A stretch of 64,000 nucleotides of DNA from Lachnospiraceae bacterium (GTDB taxonomy: Bacteria > Bacillota > Clostridia > Lachnospirales > Lachnospiraceae), in contig JAGANL010000034.1 of assembly GCA_017624235.1 (NCBI GenBank), positions 41,218 through 105,217 of the forward strand. The letters run 5' to 3'. Under the pieces are notes generated by a model, which did no database searches, had not been told where the DNA came from, and worked only from the letters and a program-made list of their open reading frames with translations. The translations under genes were made by a program, and so were the position numbers. This document shows, one piece after another, positions 19,682 through 29,024 of the stretch; positions within the stretch are counted from its first letter, which is position 1, and every line of letters starts with the position of its first letter.

Positions 19682-21724
19682 TTACTTCATACTATGTAAA
19701 GCTCTGTCAAAATCTGCTATGATGTCACCGATATCCTCAATTCCCACGCTGACCCGGATCAAATCCTCAAATACACCGGCATCCTCTTTTTCCTTCTCTG
19801 TACTGTGCAGCGCCATGGTAGAAGCCGGATGTACCACCAGCGTTCTGATATCTCCGATATTCGATACGACAAACGGCAGCTTTAATGCATCCATCAGGGC
19901 AAATGCCCTCTCACGGGAACCCACCCTCAATGTCAGAATTGTTCCGTATCCGTTCCTTAACTGTTTTCTGGCAGTTTCATAGCTTTCATTGATCTCAAGA
20001 CCCGGATAATTGACGATGATACCCGGCACCTTCGACAGATGCTCTGCCAGCGCCAGCGCATTGCTGCACTCCCTTTCCATACGCAGACCCATCGTTTCCA
20101 TACCGACGATATTCTGAAACGCATTCTGCGGTGACAGACAGCCACCGTGATTACACAGCATATCACCACGAAGCTTCGCCAGATAACAGTTCCTGCCCTG
20201 CGCCAGAAAAGGCTCGAGCTGCGGAAACCGTTCAGCATCCCAGTCAAAGGTTCCGCCATCCGTCACTACGCCGCTGATGCTGTTTCCCGTACCGTTAATA
20301 TATTTGGAAGTGGAATTGATGACCACATCCGCTCCCAGCTCAAGAGGTCTGACCAGATATGCGCTTGCCATCGTATTGTCTACCACAAGCGGCAGTCTGT
20401 GTGCATGTGCTATTTCAGCCGTTTTTCGAATATCCGTTACAATCAGACCGGGATTACCTATGGTTTCCGTAAAAATGAGTCTGGTACGTTCATTGACTGC
20501 ATTCTCCAGCTCCCTCCAGTGATTTGGCTCCACATAGCGTACCCGAATGCCAAACTGTGCAAAGCCATGGAACAGATTGATTGTACCGCCATACAGACCC
20601 GCACTGGCTATAAACTCATCCCCTGCCTTCAGCACATTGAGCAGCGCGTATGTGATGGCTGCCATACCGGAAGCACAGGCTATGGAGCCGATTCCGCGCT
20701 CCAGCTCTGTCATACGCTCTTCAAATGCCGCAATCGTCGGATTACTGATTCTTGTATAGTTGAATCCGGTCTTCTTTTTCGCAAAGACATCGGCAATGCT
20801 CTCTGCACTTTCGTGCGCATACGCACTGGTTTGATAGATAGGCGGCAGAATCGAACCATGGGGATCCGATACCTTCCGCTCTTTGACACCGTGTAGAAGC
20901 ATCGTATTAAAGCCGCTCTCCTCTCTCTCCTTCAATTCCAACGCAGTCTCAAGCGGAATGGCAATTTGAGAGGTTCCGTGCTCTCCGCTGTATCTAATCT
21001 GATAGGTTTCCTGCCCCAGAATCACCTCATAGGAATCCCAGTCCACCCTTCCTGTGCGGACATTATTCCTGACTTCTTCCAAAAATTCCTTTCTGATCTC
21101 ATGGATGGTATGCCCACCCAAATAGGTATCAAACGGCAGGCCCAGTGCCCTGGTCAGTGTTTTCTCAAGAATGGCCAGCGTGTCGTGATTGTATACAAAC
21201 ATCCACATATCCGGATTAAAAGCATCTCCGGCAATTAAGAGCCTTTCCTCCTCCACCAGCAGACCAATGGTTCCTTTGGTATGTCCGGGCAGCTCTGTCA
21301 CACGAACTGTCAGACCGCCCAAATCATACACCTCATCTCCCTTTAATGGGAGGATTACGGCCGGAGTCCTTTTAACAAAAGCTTCTTTTCCCTCCTCCAA
21401 AAGGCCGTTTTCCTTCCGAAGCCGGTCATAGCTTTCTGCCCGCCGCGCTTCTGTATTGCTGTTTTCATATGCAGGAAGGTCTAAAGGATGGATATATACC
21501 TCTTCAAACTGGTAATTTCCCTGTGTGTGGTCAGGATGTCCGTGGCTGTTGATCACGATATAGGGAACCGACAGCAGCTGGTCTACATACCCTCTGTTAT
21601 CCGCGATTCCGTGACCTGTATCCATAACGATTGCCCTTCTGTCACCCTGAATGACCGTGAAATACACTCCCCTCGCTTCCTGTACCTGCCATATTCTGTC
21701 TCTGATCTGAAACGCTTCGTGCAT
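19682..21724 (-). CDS. Fusion: metallo-beta-lactamase hydrolase + Cys/Met-metabolism PLP enzyme
   Basis: One 680-residue frame. Residues 1 to about 215 are a metallo-beta-lactamase fold hydrolase: HGHPDH (61-66), 'LPGHTKGT', 'IAGDAF', 'GGHTIHE'. Residues about 280-680 are a cystathionine-lyase/O-acetylhomoserine sulfhydrylase-type PLP enzyme, with the Schiff-base lysine in 'INSTSKYINGTGN' and substrate loop 'IYQTSAYAHES'. No stop or ribosome site is seen at the junction (about 215-280), so it reads as a real fusion. Its neighbour is a sulfonate/taurine-like ABC system, so a role in turning an organosulfur compound into homocysteine or sulfide is plausible but inferred. Confidence 0.88.
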   Translation of the reverse strand: MHEAFQIRDRIWQVQEARGVYFTVIQGDRRAIVMDTGHGIADNRGYVDQLLSVPYIVINSHGHPDHTQGNYQFEEVYIHPLDLPAYENSNTEARRAESYDRLRKENGLLEEGKEAFVKRTPAVILPLKGDEVYDLGGLTVRVTELPGHTKGTIGLLVEEERLLIAGDAFNPDMWMFVYNHDTLAILEKTLTRALGLPFDTYLGGHTIHEIRKEFLEEVRNNVRTGRVDWDSYEVILGQETYQIRYSGEHGTSQIAIPLETALELKEREESGFNTMLLHGVKERKVSDPHGSILPPIYQTSAYAHESAESIADVFAKKKTGFNYTRISNPTIAAFEERMTELERGIGSIACASGMAAITYALLNVLKAGDEFIASAGLYGGTINLFHGFAQFGIRVRYVEPNHWRELENAVNERTRLIFTETIGNPGLIVTDIRKTAEIAHAHRLPLVVDNTMASAYLVRPLELGADVVINSTSKYINGTGNSISGVVTDGGTFDWDAERFPQLEPFLAQGRNCYLAKLRGDMLCNHGGCLSPQNAFQNIVGMETMGLRMERECSNALALAEHLSKVPGIIVNYPGLEINESYETARKQLRNGYGTILTLRVGSRERAFALMDALKLPFVVSNIGDIRTLVVHPASTMALHSTEKEKEDAGVFEDLIRVSVGIEDIGDIIADFDRALHSMK

Positions 21725-21741
21725 CGGATTCTCCTCCCGGT

Positions 21742-22743
21742 TTAATAGGTTTCTTCTACATCATCCAAAAATACAAATGACTTTTTAATAAAGGCATCTA
21801 CATCTGTGTTTTCTTTTAACAGTCCGATCTGTACAAATTCGTTCACATTTTTTACGACCGCATCATAGCCTCCCTGTACCGAAGGTGTAAACTCATAGCT
21901 TGCCAGAATCTTACCAAACACCTCCGGATTGCCGGACAGATATTCCTTTTCAATCAGGTATTTTGCTGCTTCTTCCGGATTCTCGTCTACCCATGCAGAT
22001 GCTTTCATGACTGCTCTCGTATATTTTGCTGCGATTTCAGGATGCTGTTCAGCCAAATCTCTGGTCACAAAGGTAGCACAGCAGTATTCATCCGCATAAG
22101 CAGGATCCGTTGCCGTATCCAGGATAATTTCATATCCGTTATTGTTTGCCGCAACCGTTGCGGCCGGATCTACCAGACAGATGGCATCTACTGCATCGCT
22201 CTCCAGTGCCATGGCCAAATCGGAATTGTTGTAAACCACAAAGTCTACCTCCAGATTATCCGGTGTCACATTCACACCCTGCGAATACAGTGCCCGCTTT
22301 AACAGGACACAAGGAGCTTCTGCCAGTCCGTTGACACCGACCGTCTTACCCTTCAGATCTGCCACCTGTTTGATTCCGGAATCCGGCTTTACCAAAAGCT
22401 TAATACATCCGGTATGGATTCCTGATGTCATAATGATATTCAGGCCATTATCAATCGGCTGAATAAATTTACTCACCAGACCATAGGAAGCATCTACCTG
22501 ACCGGAGCCTACATATTCCGTTACGAGTCCATCCATTTTAACAGCCTCATAATTGAGTCCCTCTTCTTCAAAGTATCCCTTTTCAATCGCAATCTGCAAA
22601 GGTGCCTGACATAGTACCGTACCATAACCTACCTTCAGTACATAATCATCTCCCTTTTTTGCCTGTGCACTGCCGCATCCGGTCAGTACTCCGAGCAGAA
22701 GCAGTGCCGCTGCTGCCATTTTTGTCATAAATTTGTTTTTCAT
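21742..22743 (-). CDS. SsuA/TauA-like substrate-binding lipoprotein
   Basis: NMT1/SsuA-family binding protein of 333 residues. Signal peptide with lipobox VLTGC. The hallmark region 'VGYGTVLCQAPLQIAIEKGYF' and 'ADLKGKTVGVNG' are family features. The start at 22743 follows GAGAGGA by 8 bases; the in-frame ATG at 22779 has no site. Family members bind sulfonates, taurine, nitrate or thiamine precursors; the adjacent sulfur enzyme favours an organosulfur ligand. Confidence 0.88.
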   Translation of the reverse strand: MKNKFMTKMAAAALLLLGVLTGCGSAQAKKGDDYVLKVGYGTVLCQAPLQIAIEKGYFEEEGLNYEAVKMDGLVTEYVGSGQVDASYGLVSKFIQPIDNGLNIIMTSGIHTGCIKLLVKPDSGIKQVADLKGKTVGVNGLAEAPCVLLKRALYSQGVNVTPDNLEVDFVVYNNSDLAMALESDAVDAICLVDPAATVAANNNGYEIILDTATDPAYADEYCCATFVTRDLAEQHPEIAAKYTRAVMKASAWVDENPEEAAKYLIEKEYLSGNPEVFGKILASYEFTPSVQGGYDAVVKNVNEFVQIGLLKENTDVDAFIKKSFVFLDDVEETY

Positions 22744-22782
22744 GCTGTTTTCCTCTCTTTTCCTTTTTAACTTTTTCATATA

Positions 22783-23562
22783 TCAGATGTAGTAGCTGAT
22801 ATCCTCCACATTGCCGCCGAAATTCAGTATCTTCAATATTTTAGATCGATACTGCAAAAAGTCCGGATTGCTTCTGGCGCGCGGCCTGCCCATTTCAATA
22901 TCAATTACCTGCTCAATTTTAGCCGGTCTGGGAGACATGACAATAACCTTATCTGACAGGTAAATCGCCTCATCCACATCATGCGTTACCATGATCATTG
23001 TCATATTTTCTTCCTTCCAGATTCTTAACAGCTCATCCTGCATATTCATTCTGGTAAACGCATCCAAAGCTCCGAGTGGCTCATCTAGCAGTAAGACCTT
23101 CGGCTTTCCTACCAGACTTCTGGCCAAAGAAGCTCTCTGGCACATACCGCCTGATAACTGATGCGGATAAGACTTCTCAAATCCCTCCAGCCCTACCAGT
23201 TTTATGTACTCCTTTACCAGACTCTTATTCTGTCTGTGAATATGCCTTACCTTCAATCCAAAAGCCACATTGTCCTGTATATTCAGCCAGGGGAACAGTG
23301 TCGGATTTTGAAATACAAGACCTCTTTCATAGCTTGTTCCCACGATTTTTTTACCATCCAGCTGCAGTTCGCCTTCATCCGCATCCGAAAGTCCCGCAAT
23401 CAGCCTCAGAAGTGTGGACTTACCACAGCCGGACGGCCCGATCAGGGAAACGAAGGAACCCGCCTTTATATTCAGATTCACTCCGTTCAGAGCAATAACA
23501 TCCTCTTCCCCTTCTCTTCTGAAGCGCTTGGTAACTCCTTTTATACTTAACTCACCTACCAC
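22783..23562 (-). CDS. SsuB/TauB-like ABC transporter ATPase
   Basis: ATPase with Walker A GPSGCGKST, signature LSGGMCQRA and Walker B VLLLDEPLGALD. The GTG at 23562 is preferred since AAAGGAG lies 7 bases upstream; it overlaps the permease end by 7 bases. An ATG at 23583 is the alternative. Middle gene of the transporter operon. Confidence 0.92.
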   Translation of the reverse strand: MVGELSIKGVTKRFRREGEEDVIALNGVNLNIKAGSFVSLIGPSGCGKSTLLRLIAGLSDADEGELQLDGKKIVGTSYERGLVFQNPTLFPWLNIQDNVAFGLKVRHIHRQNKSLVKEYIKLVGLEGFEKSYPHQLSGGMCQRASLARSLVGKPKVLLLDEPLGALDAFTRMNMQDELLRIWKEENMTMIMVTHDVDEAIYLSDKVIVMSPRPAKIEQVIDIEMGRPRARSNPDFLQYRSKILKILNFGGNVEDISYYI

Positions 23563-24530
23563 TTGATAACTCCTTTCTGCCATAAGAGGACTTTGTCTCT
23601 GACCTTAAACAATAAGGTAATCAATATGGAAAATACAACTGCAATCACAATCAGACCTGCATATACATTGGCATAAGCCAACAGCTCCTTTTGCCAGTTC
23701 ACATACCAGCCGATTCCATACTTGGCTCCGATCATTTCTGCCGTTACCAGAGTAATAAAGGAAGAGCAGGTTCCATTGAATAATCCGAGAAACATATGCG
23801 GCATCGCCGCCGGAACACCGACCTCAAATATCTGAGCAAGCTTTCCTGCTCCCAGCGTTCTGGATACTTCAAAATAGGAATTTTGTACATTGCTGATACC
23901 ACTGCTTGTCATAATCGTAGTCGGAAACCAGACTGCCACTGCAATCAGGAAGGTACTTGCAGACACCGCAGACGGGAAACATACCAACACTAAAGGAATC
24001 CACGCAGTAGAAGGAATAGGACCCAGCACACGCACCACAGGCATCAGCCAATAGCTGACCGTTTTACTGAAGCCAATCGCAATCCCGGAAATGATTCCTA
24101 TCACAGCTCCGGACAAAAATCCCACAGACAAAAGCCTGATGGAATATAGAAGACATTTTAAAATGAGCTGTCTGTCCGTTATCAGCACACCGAATATCCG
24201 GTCCAGGGACGGGAAATACAACACGGGGAGCAATGCAGACTTGACTGTCAGCAGATTGACTATGTTCAGAAAAAGGATGGCCCCGGCTATAAAATACCCC
24301 TTATATATCAGTTTTTTCCGTACATTTTGTCGGAAAAAGGAGAGGATAAATATCAGCGCCCACACCACCAGACTGATCCACAATACATAAGTAAAATAAT
24401 GAGCATCTGCCTGCGGATGACTTGCCGAATCCGGTATCATTAGCTGCAGCAATAAGGTAAATACAATCGATACGCACGGCAGAACCTCTTTGATCAAATC
24501 AGTTGTTTTTGATTTTGCATTCGTATTCAT
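23556..24530 (-). CDS. SsuC/TauC-like ABC permease
   Basis: Membrane subunit of 324 residues with about seven segments, longer than usual because of two extra N-terminal segments (about 16-64). The docking loop 'FEVSRTLGAGKLAQIFEV' is the EAA-type motif. First gene of the operon, behind a good promoter and the dyad at 24577-24591. Confidence 0.91.
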   Translation of the reverse strand: MNTNAKSKTTDLIKEVLPCVSIVFTLLLQLMIPDSASHPQADAHYFTYVLWISLVVWALIFILSFFRQNVRKKLIYKGYFIAGAILFLNIVNLLTVKSALLPVLYFPSLDRIFGVLITDRQLILKCLLYSIRLLSVGFLSGAVIGIISGIAIGFSKTVSYWLMPVVRVLGPIPSTAWIPLVLVCFPSAVSASTFLIAVAVWFPTTIMTSSGISNVQNSYFEVSRTLGAGKLAQIFEVGVPAAMPHMFLGLFNGTCSSFITLVTAEMIGAKYGIGWYVNWQKELLAYANVYAGLIVIAVVFSILITLLFKVRDKVLLWQKGVIKW

Positions 24531-24576
24531 ATGCTTTCCTTTCTTCCTAATTCTTCTTTTTTATTTCCCCTTTTTC

Positions 24577-24591
24577 CTACCAACTTAGTAG
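24577..24591. promoter_or_regulatory. Dyad operator of the sulfonate-type transporter operon
   Basis: Minus strand CTAC-TAAGTTG-GTAG, starting 8 bases after the -10. Shares NTACTAANNNGGTAN with the leader of the amidohydrolase operon (9578-9564). A sulfur regulator of the Rrf2/CymR type is a possible binder; this is inference. Confidence 0.55.
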
Positions 24592-24599
24592 ATATATGT

Positions 24600-24628
24600 T
24601 TTATACCATTTATTTCCTTGTAAGTCAA
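24600..24628 (-). promoter_or_regulatory. Promoter of sulfonate-type transporter operon
   Basis: TTGACT (24628-24623), 17-bp spacer, TATAAA (24605-24600), minus strand. Confidence 0.78.
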
Positions 24629-24658
24629 TAGGATTTATAAGGAAATTTAAAAATATAG

Positions 24659-24952
24659 TAACAGTCCAGCCCATGCCAGGCTCCGCTCTCACCGGCCCTG
24701 TCACACAGAGAACATTTCAAGACATACAGCAGGACTGCGCGTTTTCTTAATGGAGCATTCATATACCCAGGGAGAAATCGGCAAGGATGCCGATTTCAGG
24801 ATTCCCTGCACATGGATGTGCATGGAATCCGACCCGAGCGGAATCTATAACTTCCTGCTCCATTTAGAAAACTCCAGTCCGAATGTTGTCTTGAAATGTT
24901 CTCTGTGTGACCGGGCCGGTGAGAGCGGAGCCTGGCATGGGCTGGACTGTTA
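24659..24952. repeat. Palindromic structured element, copy 1
   Basis: 294 bp. Outer arms 24659-24724 and 24887-24952 are 66 bp with one mismatch. Inside, GGACTG pairs with CAGTCC, TTTTCTTAATGGAGCA pairs with TGCTCCATTTAGAAAA (one mismatch), and two hairpins sit at the centre (AAATCGGC/GCCGATTT, and GGATTCC/GGAATCC with a GCACAT/ATGTGC tip). Same orientation as copy 2 at 28118-28401. It lies between the agr terminator and the ssu-type promoter. No flanking target duplication could be seen. MITE-like foldback DNA or structured RNA. Confidence 0.93.
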
Positions 24953-24978
24953 TACAATATATTCATTGGTCGTATAAC

Positions 24979-25039
24979 AAAAAAGCAGTATATATCAATC
25001 CACGGAATATCACGATTCCTGTAATTGAAATACACTGCT
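24979..25039 (-). terminator. Terminator of the agr operon
   Basis: Minus strand AGCAGTGTATTTCAAT pairs with ATTGATATATACTGCT (few mismatches), then six T. It closes the agr unit before palindromic copy 1. Confidence 0.8.
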
Positions 25040-25043
25040 CTCC

Positions 25044-25625
25044 TTATATACAAAATTTATTCTTCGCATTCTGCAAAAGGAGCATTACCGCTTCCTCCAT
25101 GCAGGATAATAAAATCATAATCAGAAGCATCTCCCACCGGCATAGTACAGACGCAATCAGGAGCAAGTCCAAAACTACAATATAAATTCTCGTTCTTTTT
25201 CTGTAATGACAGCATTCCTCGTCATCCAGCGGTTTATTGGCATTGTCTATTGGCGCCAGCTTCCAGATCATAGCCTGAGAAACCAGCCCAAATGCCAATA
25301 GACTGCCATATAACATAGGAAGAAGCCCCCCGGCTTCATATATCCTCCCTGCAGCAAATAATGTCAAACCAATCTGCAGACAGGATAGAATATAACAATG
25401 CAAGCGGGTTTTAGCATGAAACCCGCCCGCATTATTACGAAGGAAAGAATAGATTAGTGAAAAAATAAGAAACTCTCTTAATCTTCCCATTAGAATTGCA
25501 ATGACGAAAAAGGATGCTACATTCAATGCTTTCAGCAGCAGACATTCCAGCCCAAAGAGATAAATCTCTGCATCCTGCCTTTCTATAATGTCATTTGCCA
25601 CCAACGCATTGATGAATCTCTGCAT
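25044..25625 (-). CDS. agrB: AgrB-like peptide-processing membrane protease
   Basis: Integral membrane cysteine endopeptidase of 193 residues that cuts AgrD and forms the thiolactone ring. The catalytic pair H70 and C77 sits in 'AGGFHAKTRLHC', and the family motif 'APIDNANKPLDDEE' follows. About six membrane segments. Starts 21 bases after agrD; last gene of the agr unit. Confidence 0.95.
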   Translation of the reverse strand: MQRFINALVANDIIERQDAEIYLFGLECLLLKALNVASFFVIAILMGRLREFLIFSLIYSFLRNNAGGFHAKTRLHCYILSCLQIGLTLFAAGRIYEAGGLLPMLYGSLLAFGLVSQAMIWKLAPIDNANKPLDDEECCHYRKRTRIYIVVLDLLLIASVLCRWEMLLIMILLSCMEEAVMLLLQNAKNKFCI

Positions 25626-25646
25626 CTTACCTTACCTCTGAAGCAC

Positions 25647-25781
25647 CTAGAATTTTCTTAACTTCCTGGATGCTTCCGGTGCCTTCGGCTGATATATGTA
25701 TACTGCACATGCACTGTTTACATTCTTCTTAGCAGACTGTAAAACCACTTTAGAAATTCCTTTTAAAATTTCTTTCTTCAT
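25647..25781 (-). CDS. agrD: AgrD autoinducing-peptide precursor
   Basis: A 44-residue prepeptide. Basic amphipathic N-terminus (MKKEILKGISKVV), core SACAVYI, then the C-terminal recognition tail 'YQPKAPEASRKLRKF' typical of AgrD. By analogy with clostridial AgrD the mature signal would be a five-residue thiolactone ring from C25 to I29 (CAVYI) with a short SA or NSA tail. AAAGGAGAGG precedes the ATG by 7 bases. Directly upstream of agrB. Confidence 0.93.
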   Translation of the reverse strand: MKKEILKGISKVVLQSAKKNVNSACAVYIYQPKAPEASRKLRKF

Positions 25782-25856
25782 GATTCATCCTCTCCTTTGC
25801 ATGGGATTTATCTCAAAAATTCATCACTCAAGAAATTTTATAAGGTATTTCGTTAT

Positions 25857-25906
25857 TTTATACAATACTTTTTCGCTAAGTGACAGGTTTTTGTTATCAA
25901 CTTACA
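25857..25906 (-). promoter_or_regulatory. agrDB promoter with two LytTR-type direct repeats
   Basis: Minus strand: TGTAAGTTGAT (25906-25896, written 5' to 3') and TGTCACTTAGC (25885-25875) begin 21 bp apart, the two-turn spacing of LytTR/AgrA sites. The -10 TATAAA is at 25862-25857 and the second repeat covers the -35. Suggests autoinduction of agrDB by the LytTR regulator at 27295. Confidence 0.6.
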
Positions 25907-25954
25907 GCTATTGTAGGATTTTGAACGGTAATGCGGTGATGCAGTAATCAAATA

Positions 25955-27289
25955 TTAAGCGGTCACTGTCTTTGAAGTCATTGTCAGACTGATATTACAG
26001 ATAAATTCTCCTCCCTCACATTCAAAGGTAATATCCCCTTCATACCTCTCCACCGCATTCCGCACATTTTCCAATCCGAATCCATGACCCTCCCCTTTCC
26101 GGGAAACCGGAAAACCCTTATGATCCCACACGATTGCTTCGCTTGTCCTGTTTTTGATTCTCAAAAACAACACATCATTTCTTGTCTTCATAGAAAAGCA
26201 GACCTTCTTTTCTCCCTCCAGATGACTGCAGGCATTTACCGCATTATCCAGAATATTACCAAATATGGTGGTAATATCAATCTGCTCCATAAAATCCAGA
26301 CCAACATTCTCAATATCCATTTCAAAGGAGATGCCTCTTTCCTCCCCCAGCGTTACTTTATCGTTCAATATAGTATTGAGAATATGATCCGAAACATATT
26401 TTGTCGGCAGAAGCGGTGACAGCATTCCGCTAATATCCTGCGTATAGGAAATGGCCTTTTCTTCCTCATGCTGCTGATAAAGCTCACTTATAACCTGAAT
26501 ATGCTTTTTGACATCATGCAGAACCGAAAGCGCCGTCTCATACCTTTTATCCAGTGCAATAAAATGCTCTTCCTGTAAAACGGAGCGTTCCTTTAGAAGC
26601 TCCAGCTTCAGCTTCAATGAGATATTCTCCGAAAGATACCCCATCAAATCCCCGATAAACAGATTTAACAGCAAAAGTATGATTCCATTTGCCAAAATGG
26701 CAGCTCCCCGCCAGTTCATCTCAATGCTCTGCCCCGACGGAATCAATACGATAATATTCACGATACTGAAAATCATTACCATAAAATAAATATAATAGTC
26801 CCGGCTTCTGACATGCCTGATCCTTTCCTGCTTTAAAATCCCGGAAAGAACAAATCTGTAAATGGCAATCAGAAAAATCAGCGTGCCTATTGTACAAAAA
26901 AGCCCTTCCATATTGCTTTGATATTCCTTTATCTGAAACAGGCTTTTCAAACCAAGCATGCTAAAATAGCCGATTACCTCACATACAGCAACAAGTACGG
27001 TAATCAGAACCGACTGGGCTATGACAAGACTTCTTTTTATACCACCATCACGGTAGTACAGCATTCCTACCGAGCATGCCACTGCCAGCCATGCCATAAA
27101 ATTATAAAATGGCTGTTCCAGCAGATTAATCGAAAACATGCCGACACCAATCAAGGTATAGATACCCCTGTGAACCCACAGCTTTTTCATCCGTTTCTGA
27201 TATCTTCGATTCATAAAGTCTGCAATGATCCACAGTTCTACCACACACGATAACAAATATCCGATATAAGTCAGTATTACATCCTGCAA
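25955..27289 (-). CDS. agrC: AgrC-like GHKL sensor histidine kinase
   Basis: Receptor kinase of 444 residues with six or seven N-terminal membrane segments (to about residue 225), a coiled linker, the phosphoacceptor box 'SVLHDVKKHIQVI', and a C-terminal GHKL ATPase ('FGNILDNAVNAC', 'GHGFGLENVRNAV'). The architecture fits receptors for cyclic peptides. Starts 5 bases after the LytTR regulator stop. Confidence 0.9.
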   Translation of the reverse strand: MQDVILTYIGYLLSCVVELWIIADFMNRRYQKRMKKLWVHRGIYTLIGVGMFSINLLEQPFYNFMAWLAVACSVGMLYYRDGGIKRSLVIAQSVLITVLVAVCEVIGYFSMLGLKSLFQIKEYQSNMEGLFCTIGTLIFLIAIYRFVLSGILKQERIRHVRSRDYYIYFMVMIFSIVNIIVLIPSGQSIEMNWRGAAILANGIILLLLNLFIGDLMGYLSENISLKLKLELLKERSVLQEEHFIALDKRYETALSVLHDVKKHIQVISELYQQHEEEKAISYTQDISGMLSPLLPTKYVSDHILNTILNDKVTLGEERGISFEMDIENVGLDFMEQIDITTIFGNILDNAVNACSHLEGEKKVCFSMKTRNDVLFLRIKNRTSEAIVWDHKGFPVSRKGEGHGFGLENVRNAVERYEGDITFECEGGEFICNISLTMTSKTVTA

Positions 27290-27294
27290 ATTCC

Positions 27295-28044
27295 CTACCT
27301 CCCAAACGTTTCCCTGTCAATCAGCTCATACCAGACCTTCCGAAACTCAGCGGCTCTCTTCTGGGAAAGCGGTATTTCATCACCATTCAGCATATAGACC
27401 ATATACTGACGCACTCTCTGCACCTGCCTGATATTTACGAGAAAAGCCTTATGCGGCTGTATAAAACCGCAATCCTTCAGTTTTTCAATCAGATGTATGA
27501 GCCGGTCCTGCACATAATAGACCATATCCGTTCCATCCATGCCAAGCACCAGGCGAATCCTGTGCTCCACATACTCAAAATAACAGATATCCTTTACCGG
27601 AAAGGTCATCGTCCCTTTTCCGATGACTTTCAGAGAAAGAGTCATTTCCTCCCTGATTCTGGCATTCATCTGTTCACAGATGTCCTGAAGCTGTTCAAAC
27701 AATTCCTCCTTACGCAGCGGCTTTTCCAGAAAAGCAAAGGCATGCGCCCTGTTCTGCGCCGTCTTTTTGGAGAGCAGATCTCCCAGATTGGTAATATAAA
27801 TGATATAGCTGTCGCGGTTTCGTTTCCATATTTCCTGCCCTGCCTCCAACCCATTCCTGCCCTGCATGTCAATATCTAAAAATACAATTTCCTCCTCCAG
27901 ACCGGTTTGCAGGAAACGGTCAGCACTTTCATACTCCTGCAGTACCAGTTCTATTTTATGTTCCTTTGCAAATACTTTTAAAGCCTCCGCCAGAGTCTTC
28001 CGAAACTCCCTTTCATCATCACAAATTGCACAATGAAGCCGCAT
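27295..28044 (-). CDS. LytTR response regulator, AgrA-like
   Basis: 249 residues. The receiver domain (1 to about 125) has D9/D10 and phosphoacceptor D57 in 'VFLDIDM'; the LytTR DNA-binding domain is at about 140-245 ('FPVKDICYFEYVEHRIRL', 'FIQPHKAFLVNIRQV'). First gene of the agr unit, so the order is regulator-sensor-agrD-agrB, unlike the BDCA order of staphylococci. Probably binds the direct repeats before agrD. Confidence 0.93.
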   Translation of the reverse strand: MRLHCAICDDEREFRKTLAEALKVFAKEHKIELVLQEYESADRFLQTGLEEEIVFLDIDMQGRNGLEAGQEIWKRNRDSYIIYITNLGDLLSKKTAQNRAHAFAFLEKPLRKEELFEQLQDICEQMNARIREEMTLSLKVIGKGTMTFPVKDICYFEYVEHRIRLVLGMDGTDMVYYVQDRLIHLIEKLKDCGFIQPHKAFLVNIRQVQRVRQYMVYMLNGDEIPLSQKRAAEFRKVWYELIDRETFGR

Positions 28045-28079
28045 CCTACACCTCTTTTCTATTCTCTCTCCTCCACCTC

Positions 28080-28109
28080 ATTATAATCGTATATGACATT
28101 TATTGGCAA
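28080..28109 (-). promoter_or_regulatory. Promoter of agr regulator/sensor genes
   Basis: TTGCCA (28109-28104), 18-bp spacer, TATAAT (28085-28080), minus strand. Palindromic copy 2 starts 9 bases upstream of the -35. Confidence 0.7.
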
Positions 28110-28117
28110 GTTTCACT

Positions 28118-28401
28118 GTAACAGTTTAGTCCGCGCCAGCCTCAGTACTCCCAGCCCAACTCCACACAGAGAATTTCGGGACATACAGTAGGACTGAGCG
28201 TTTTCTTAATGGAGTATTCAAAACCATAGGGAGAAATCGGCAAGGATGCCGATTTCAGGATTCCTTGCGCATGGAATCCGGCCCGGTCGGATTTCATACT
28301 TGTCTGCTCCATTTAGAAAACTCCAGTCCGAATGTCATCCCGAAATTTTCTGTGTGGAGTTGGGCTGGGAGTACTGAGGCTGGCGCGGGCTAAACTGTTA
28401 C
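28118..28401. repeat. Palindromic structured element, copy 2
   Basis: 284 bp. Arms 28118-28181 and 28338-28401 are 64 bp with two differences, both G-T wobble-compatible. The core repeats copy 1: GTTTTCTTAATGGAG pairing, AAATCGGC/GCCGATTT hairpin, and GGATTCC/GGAATCC hairpin with a shorter tip. Arm sequence differs from copy 1 at many positions but stays self-complementary. Same orientation as copy 1; the two bracket the agr unit. Lies between the agr promoter and luxS. Confidence 0.93.
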
Positions 28402-28431
28402 AGCTTCACCTCTGTTAGCGTTTACTTTTCC

Positions 28432-28460
28432 TTGACATTCTCCGCCGGATAATTTACTGT
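28432..28460 (+). promoter_or_regulatory. luxS-mtnN promoter
   Basis: TTGACA at 28432-28437, 17-bp spacer, TACTGT at 28455-28460. The -10 is weak. Confidence 0.5.
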
Positions 28461-28544
28461 CAATATAGTGGGTCAGATATCATTACACTTCATTTTATGG
28501 CATATCACCCCATCAATAAATGCACCGGAAAGGAATGTTGATAC

Positions 28545-29024
28545 ATGGAAAAAATAGCAAGCTTTACGATCGATCACATAAAACTGGAACCGGGAATCTA
28601 TGTTTCCCGTAAGGATCATGTCGGAGAAAATGTCATTACGACCTTTGATCTGCGCATGACCTCTCCTAACGATGAACCCGTTATGAACACTGCAGAGGTA
28701 CATACGATTGAACATCTCGGAGCCACCTATCTGAGAAATCACCCGGAATTTTCCTCCAAAACCATCTACTTCGGGCCGATGGGCTGCCGGACAGGTTTTT
28801 ATCTGCTTCTGGCTGGCGATTATGAATCCGGGGATATTGTAAAACTGATTACGGATATGTATGAATTTATTCGGGATTTCCGTGATGAAGTGCCTGGCGC
28901 GAGCGCAAAGGACTGCGGTAACTATCTGGATATGAATCTTGGCATGGCAAATTACCTTGCAAAACGCTATCTGGAAAATACTCTGTATGATATTGACGAA
29001 AAGCATCTTATTTATCCGCAGTAA
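28545..29024 (+). CDS. luxS: S-ribosylhomocysteine lyase
   Basis: Cleaves S-ribosylhomocysteine to homocysteine and DPD, the AI-2 precursor. Metal ligands H53 and H57 in HTIEHL and C124 in 'AKDCGN', with catalytic C81 in 'GPMGCRTGFY'. Length 159 is standard. Precedes mtnN, which makes its substrate, and adjoins the agr unit. Confidence 0.98.
   Translation: MEKIASFTIDHIKLEPGIYVSRKDHVGENVITTFDLRMTSPNDEPVMNTAEVHTIEHLGATYLRNHPEFSSKTIYFGPMGCRTGFYLLLAGDYESGDIVKLITDMYEFIRDFRDEVPGASAKDCGNYLDMNLGMANYLAKRYLENTLYDIDEKHLIYPQ

Follow-up and report, generated by a model that had tools for sequence, protein, structure and literature searches.

Introduction

ERIC, NEMIS and other RNA-coding bacterial MITEs are short palindromes scattered through genomes; their transcripts fold and may serve as substrates of RNase III. 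REPINs, the elements associated with RAYT transposases, are likewise extragenic, palindromic and dispersed, and occur as inverted pairs (PMC3116915, accessible part). Template switching between the two halves of a palindrome has been described in print for quasipalindromes and has been proposed to maintain RNA hairpins (PMC8794818, accessible part).

The TwoAYGGAY RNA (RF01731) has been on record since 2010; in the literature accessible to us we found no demonstrated function. In 2014, matches to the CsrA motif were noted in this RNA and CsrA-binding sRNAs were proposed for Clostridia; the accessible text of that paper likens the RNA to CsrB/CsrC and RsmX/Y/Z, which also carry GGA in hairpin loops, and calls the external stem of the model not well conserved (PMC4333381). 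The available sections of PMC2864571, PMC4333381 and PMC11701678 make no mention of palindromic arms, dispersal or empty sites for TwoAYGGAY. Likewise, a search of titles and abstracts, with subscription papers and supplements outside its scope, found none that ties the RNA to dispersal or palindromic arms. Here we describe TwoAYGGAY copies that form the centres of long, dispersed palindromes.

Results

Two palindromes with a TwoAYGGAY core

The window, a stretch of 64,000 nt from a Lachnospiraceae bacterium, contains two palindromes that were delimited by the complementarity of their sequence (Table 1). The initial annotation had described self-complementary arms in each copy, and we confirmed these. 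In copy 1 the arms enclose a spacer of 162 nt; those of copy 2 form 64 Watson-Crick and 2 GU pairs, so that both leftover mismatches are indeed wobbles, as had been stated. The description of the inner motifs was also correct. The arm changes cited as examples between copies 1 and 2 exist but had been placed one position off: counted from 24659, CC is replaced by TT at arm positions 8-9, and AT by GC at 15-16.

Table 1. Features of the window (names of genes by Pfam, from open reading frames) and flank-to-flank lengths at four sites elsewhere in the same genome (G000) and in its sister genome (G001).
Feature	Position	Strand	Details
Transporter permease gene	23556-24530	-	neighbour of copy 1
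Palindrome copy 1	24659-24952		294 bp
Left arm, copy 1	24659-24724	+	66 nt, 98% complementary to 24887-24952; outside Rfam model
Core of copy 1, TwoAYGGAY RNA RF01731	24725-24887	+	83.1 bits, model 1-168 of 168
Hairpin 1, loop CAAGGAUG, CsrA-like site	24774-24797	+	sequence, model fold, GGA in loop
Hairpin 2, loop ACAUGGAUGU, CsrA-like site	24799-24830	+	sequence, model fold, GGA in loop
Right arm, copy 1	24887-24952	+	complementary to 24659-24724
agrB	25044-25625	-	neighbour of copy 1
Sensor kinase gene	25955-27289
LytTR response regulator gene	27295-28044	-	neighbour of copy 2
Palindrome copy 2	28116-28403		288 bp
Left arm, copy 2	28116-28181	+	66 nt, 97% complementary to 28338-28403
Core of copy 2, TwoAYGGAY RNA	28184-28336	+	67.7 bits
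Right arm, copy 2	28338-28403	+	complementary to 28116-28181
luxS	28545-29024	+	neighbour of copy 2
Site C2:19834			329 bp in G000, 62 bp in G001
Site C2:21216			527 bp in G000, 210 bp in G001
Site C10:88029			421 bp in G000, 82 bp in G001
Site C10:102820			463 bp in G000, 205 bp in G001

Searches with Rfam covariance models matched both cores to RF01731 on the + strand, above the gathering score of 43 and across the full model (positions 1-168), whereas at neither copy did any other Rfam family attain its own gathering score. The core is the known structured RNA TwoAYGGAY. As this family is in Rfam, the RNA itself is not new, and the novelty suggested by the initial annotation falls by its own reasoning. 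The palindromes go beyond the described RNA: the model covers the inner 168 positions only and stops where the variable, near-perfect outer arms start, so that each copy is enclosed by an additional stem, 48-88 nt long on either side.

The CsrA consensus is RUACARGGAUGU, which the loops CAAGGAUG and ACAUGGAUGU of the core resemble. Copy 1 has both GGA-loop hairpins, while copy 2 carries a deletion that removes the tip of hairpin 2 and the GGA with it. Among 174 cores from 11 genomes (a count that omits G000:C4), 157 carry GGA within the closed loop of hairpin 1 and 160 within that of hairpin 2; 147 have it in the two loops at once. The cores that miss GGA loops cluster in four genomes (G009, G023, G024 and G035), e.g. 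hairpin 2 has no closed GGA loop in any of the four G035 cores or in five of the seven from G009. By sequence, the hairpin loops look like CsrA sites.

Given the positions of the copies among the agrB, LytTR regulator and luxS genes, the two bracket an agr-like operon (AgrB, sensor kinase, LytTR regulator; the region with the adjoining luxS spans 25044-29024). Copy 1 is antisense to both of its neighbouring genes.

The arms change in pairs

Covariation was determined in an alignment of 15 copies, the best-matching of those in the window's own genome. In this alignment 97.5% of the cells pair, and 59 of 109 pairs show two-sided change, compared with 30.8 ± 2.8 in 500 shuffles; the covariation score was 0.410 vs 0.139 ± 0.008 after shuffling. 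Sliding the partners by 1-3 columns left 16-21 such pairs, a comparison that favours the structure over its slid versions because the structure was derived from the same 15 copies. The arms thus co-vary between copies far beyond chance, as had been claimed. Specifically, two-sided change affected 51 of the 64 pairs of helix 1, which the arms form, and none of the 22 pairs of helix 2, which is the conserved stem within the Rfam model (17 invariant, five varying by G-U only).

Arm identities were calculated for 35 of the 38 copies in this genome, leaving out two truncated copies and G000:C4. The left and right arms of one copy are on average 95% identical (minimum 88%), and the right arm of the same copy is the nearest match of every left arm (35/35); between copies, arms are 50% and cores 78% identical. 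In nine disjoint nearest pairs we counted 126 paired complementary arm changes, six paired non-complementary changes and 27 changes in a single arm. The paired complementary changes comprise 69 transitions and 57 transversions (45% transversions), and the single-arm changes 21 and six respectively. Runs of inserted or deleted arm bases were paired in 12 cases vs two in a single arm. Since G-U steps would favour transitions and give no paired indels, whereas copying of one arm from the other gives both kinds of change, arm-to-arm copying explains these data best, and template switching at the DNA level is the best account of the arm changes that these alignments suggest. In an orthologous pair from two species of another genus (G382:C131 and G067:C64), whose flanks have identities of 71% and 85%, the left and the right arm each differ between the species, possibly through conversion by another copy.

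The initial annotation had offered structured RNA and foldback DNA as two readings of the whole element. Each holds for a different part: the core is an Rfam RNA, and the arms, with their few G-U intermediates and paired indels, as well as the dispersal described below, fit the foldback reading. The paired multi-base changes that restore perfect stems are like those in the template-switch maintenance of RNA hairpins (PMC8794818, accessible part); here, they affect arms of ∼60 bp in tens of dispersed copies, beside a core stem that does not change in this way.

The proposed wobble test, in which equal wobble on both strands would indicate DNA and an excess on one strand RNA, gave a mixed answer. 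Over whole arms the GU:AC ratio was 39:32 in the window's genome and 133:105 in eight genomes (P = 0.08), which had suggested no RNA selection before the count was restricted to helices. In uninterrupted arm helices from 11 genomes, GU exceeded AC by 80:42 (P = 0.0007), and this ∼2:1 excess reveals some RNA selection on the arms as well. The core ratio was 39:15 over three genomes (G000, 16:6; G005, 10:8; G023, 13:1), and the hairpins round the GGA loops gave 5:8. G000:C4, whose core coordinates were estimated from a partial match, is included in the helix count, and left out of the whole-arm totals and the core count. GU pairs made up 0.9% (helix count), 1.7% (whole arms, G000) and 3.0% (eight genomes) of the arm pairs.

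Copy number and empty sites

The window's genome (2.33 Mb, 80% complete) has 37 matches to RF01731, 36 of them above the cut-off. The RNA was present in eight of 61 relatives searched, this genome included, in 65 of the 397 genomes surveyed from the taxonomic family (63 exceeding the cut-off) and in 51 of 398 genomes of the phylum (34 above); in the family and phylum surveys six candidates were scored per genome, and the copy counts are lower bounds. Full counts in six genomes were 47, 15, 8, 6, 31 and 5. Sister species differ in copies, i.e. 37 vs 2 in the window's genus and 47 vs 15 and 31 vs 5 in two others, and the distribution is sporadic with high copy numbers. As copies lie at contig ends in several drafts (G000:C5:2-161, G005:C45:21-187, G035:C87 and C88:1-129, G382:C179:1-164), the draft counts may be too low.

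Two genomes carry divergent pairs, each a minus copy followed by a plus copy: nine pairs in G111 (18 of 31 copies; contigs C1, C5, C8, C15, C23 and C31) and two in G009 (four of seven; C33 and C47). The cores of a pair are 148-490 bp apart, and 148-300 bp in six examined from these genomes. At another locus (L122; G409:C1:326939-328120), a CAAX-protease gene is flanked by two inverted TwoAYGGAY copies with similar arms, like a composite unit.

Empty sites had been named as a mark of a mobile DNA element. We compared the neighbourhoods of five copies in G000 with one sister genome of the same genus, G001, the syntenic stretches being 74-87% identical. The element was missing from G001 at four of the five sites (Table 1); the fifth, C2:24097, is not counted among the empty sites. 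At the four, the excess in G000 is 258-339 bp, near the length of the element, which points to spread by insertion; insertion in G000 is a simpler reading of the length differences than loss in G001. The window copies lie outside this comparison, because synteny with G001 is lacking over the stretch 20000-28527, which matched elsewhere for 62 bp only, and the G001 contig starts too close upstream of luxS. No target-site duplication, the other expected mark, was seen at the four empty sites, where divergence of the intergenic flanks prevents junctions from being placed to the base.

No transposase was found among the ORF families common to at least three flanks of the loci compared; these families were an ABC transporter, a response regulator, an aminotransferase and ribosomal S6, at four loci or fewer each. 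A Y1 (RAYT) transposase was found in three of 11 TwoAYGGAY-positive vs six of 11 negative genomes, and not in G000 (80% complete), G067, G111 or G023. Mobilization by Y1/RAYT was rejected as a general mechanism, eight of the 11 positive genomes yielding no such gene. Carriage by a plasmid or phage was also rejected, the sequence of window copy 1 having no blastn match in either collection. With terminal inverted repeats, many copies, empty sites and no coding capacity (judged from the size and the RNA core), the element has these features of a MITE, and it seems to have multiplied across the genome, to dozens of copies, in the manner of a mobile element.

Gene context and transcription signals

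A simple ORF rule was used to determine the orientation of the genes next to 38 copies in the window's genome (G000:C4 included). Both neighbours run with the RNA in 13 cases and against it in 10; 11 copies lie between divergent and three between convergent genes, and one is one-sided. The 13 vs 10 copies show no sense bias, as expected of dispersed insertions. A role as terminator was rejected given the three copies between convergent genes and the few T-runs, which were found at the 3′ end of 5/38 copies in G000 and 3/45 in G067. No excess of promoter-like scores was seen on the sense side in G000, G005 or G023; of the five genomes tested, G067 had higher scores there (P = 0.0007 for 43 copies), and G111 gave P = 0.08. 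Without a promoter excess or sense bias and with few T-runs in their own genome, many copies may depend on outside transcription. One sense copy, C2:21216, was placed by eye between a promoter-like pair common to G000 and G001 and the start of the downstream gene, and seems to lie in a 5′ leader.

TwoAYGGAY co-occurs with CsrA

CsrA (PF02599), the protein that a host of CsrA-antagonist sRNAs is expected to encode, was found in 62 of 65 TwoAYGGAY-positive vs 148 of 332 negative genomes (P = 4e-16; 397 genomes of the family). Counted by genus, the level up to which kinship was handled, the numbers were 56 of 58 vs 124 of 276 (P = 7e-15). The search covered the taxonomic family. In the positive genomes G193, G343 and G382 a second look also gave no CsrA match; G382 holds 15 TwoAYGGAY copies at 91% completeness. 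The co-occurrence is strong and gives new support to the 2014 proposal. CsrA probably follows motility, and a confounder of the co-occurrence is therefore possible.

The sole CsrA found in the window's genome (80% complete) is a divergent paralogue with a C-terminal extension, which several positive genomes carry. This paralogue was detected in 14 of 65 positive vs eight of 332 negative genomes (P = 3e-7), six of the 14 being the sources of the queries; without these six, the numbers are 8/59 vs 8/332 (P = 0.0008). It is not needed for TwoAYGGAY, because 51 of the 65 positive genomes have no match of at least 67 bits. In the window's genome (contig C18), the paralogue gene (L309:7526-7900, +; G000:C18:125576) has a flagellin gene (L309:8113-9462) shortly downstream and a tyrosine recombinase gene (L309:6859-7440) beside it on the opposite strand.

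Discussion

On balance, and with confidence slightly better than even, we favour a foldback element, dispersed and non-coding, in which a TwoAYGGAY RNA that would bind CsrA lies between arms that are a DNA palindrome renewed by template switching. On its single long stem, the core RNA would present two GGA hairpins of the CsrA type. The palindrome would insert as a whole at new sites through a putative enzyme, and arm complementarity would be restored mainly at the DNA level when replication switches template from one arm to the other; some selection acting on the RNA duplex would add to arm upkeep. Where a copy lies in a transcribed region, its RNA would bind CsrA or the CsrA paralogue, and the bound copy could either titrate the protein or put that mRNA under its control. 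Several observations count against this explanation: the lost GGA loop of window copy 2, the hairpin-2 loops without a closed GGA in G035 and G009, the three positive genomes with no CsrA match, the divergent paralogue as the one CsrA found in the window's genome, the lack of any target-site duplication or flank-shared transposase among those looked for, and the GU excess in arm helices. We hold more tentatively to a stronger form, a transposable CsrA decoy: its transcript would bind CsrA or the divergent paralogue, copy number and insertion sites would set CsrA activity and rewire the regulon, and each copy would stay a near-perfect hairpin while template switching rewrites the arms and their sequences drift far apart.

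Several of the same observations are also expected if the copies are simply multicopy sRNA genes for CsrB/RsmZ-like CsrA antagonists under ordinary selection, the long stem giving stability and being kept by compensation at the RNA level. The CsrA co-occurrence, the GGA loops kept on one strand, the GU excess in arm helices and core, and the higher sense-side promoter-like scores in G067 all agree with such genes. We nevertheless consider them rather doubtful, given the lack of a sense-side promoter excess in three other genomes, the few 3′ T-runs, the low GU share of arm pairs, the preponderance of paired over single changes with nearly as many transversions as transitions, and the empty sites in G001. 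TwoAYGGAY also differs from CsrB/CsrC and RsmX/Y/Z: each RNA has two sites, dispersed copies number up to 47, the palindromic arms are long, and in the window's genome no promoter or terminator clearly belongs to the element. Its sporadic distribution, high copy number and empty sites could also mark a selfish MITE-like or REPIN-like miniature element to which CsrA is irrelevant and whose hairpins serve recognition by a putative recombinase, and the divergent pairs in G111 and G009 are reminiscent of the paired REPs in REPINs (PMC3116915, accessible part). This is unlikely, however, as it leaves the strand-specific GGA loops and the CsrA co-occurrence without explanation; moreover, Y1 transposases, the type that mobilizes REPINs, were found in fewer positive than negative genomes, and no target-site duplication was seen at the empty sites.

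Least probable of all, and by a long way improbable in itself, is a cis-regulatory leader by which each copy controls its downstream gene. Rfam types RF01731 as Cis-reg and the sense copy C2:21216 fits this role; the mixed orientations of the neighbouring genes, the antisense position of window copy 1 and the housekeeping nature of the few ORF families shared among flanks all speak against it. Comparison with known elements likewise leaves differences: at ∼290 bp, with a conserved RNA core and no Y1 transposase found in the window's genome, the element departs from REPINs. It shares with ERIC- and NEMIS-type MITEs the form of a small dispersed palindrome whose transcript would fold, but neither target-site duplication nor parent transposase was seen here, and arms are only ∼50% identical between copies.

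The sporadic high-copy spread and the tie to CsrA turn the 2014 proposal into a hypothesis with a clear test. If the favoured foldback element with its CsrA-binding RNA is real, it would illustrate how sites recognized by a global RNA-binding regulator can be distributed by a mobile element. The arms also provide a natural set of long hairpins, dozens per genome, for following paired change with few G-U steps, and bear on how RNA stems stay paired as their sequence changes. At one locus (L051; G035:C67:1329-1487), the inverted-repeat arms extend ∼220 nt past each core end with 78% of positions matched; no other copy fetched has arms nearly as long.
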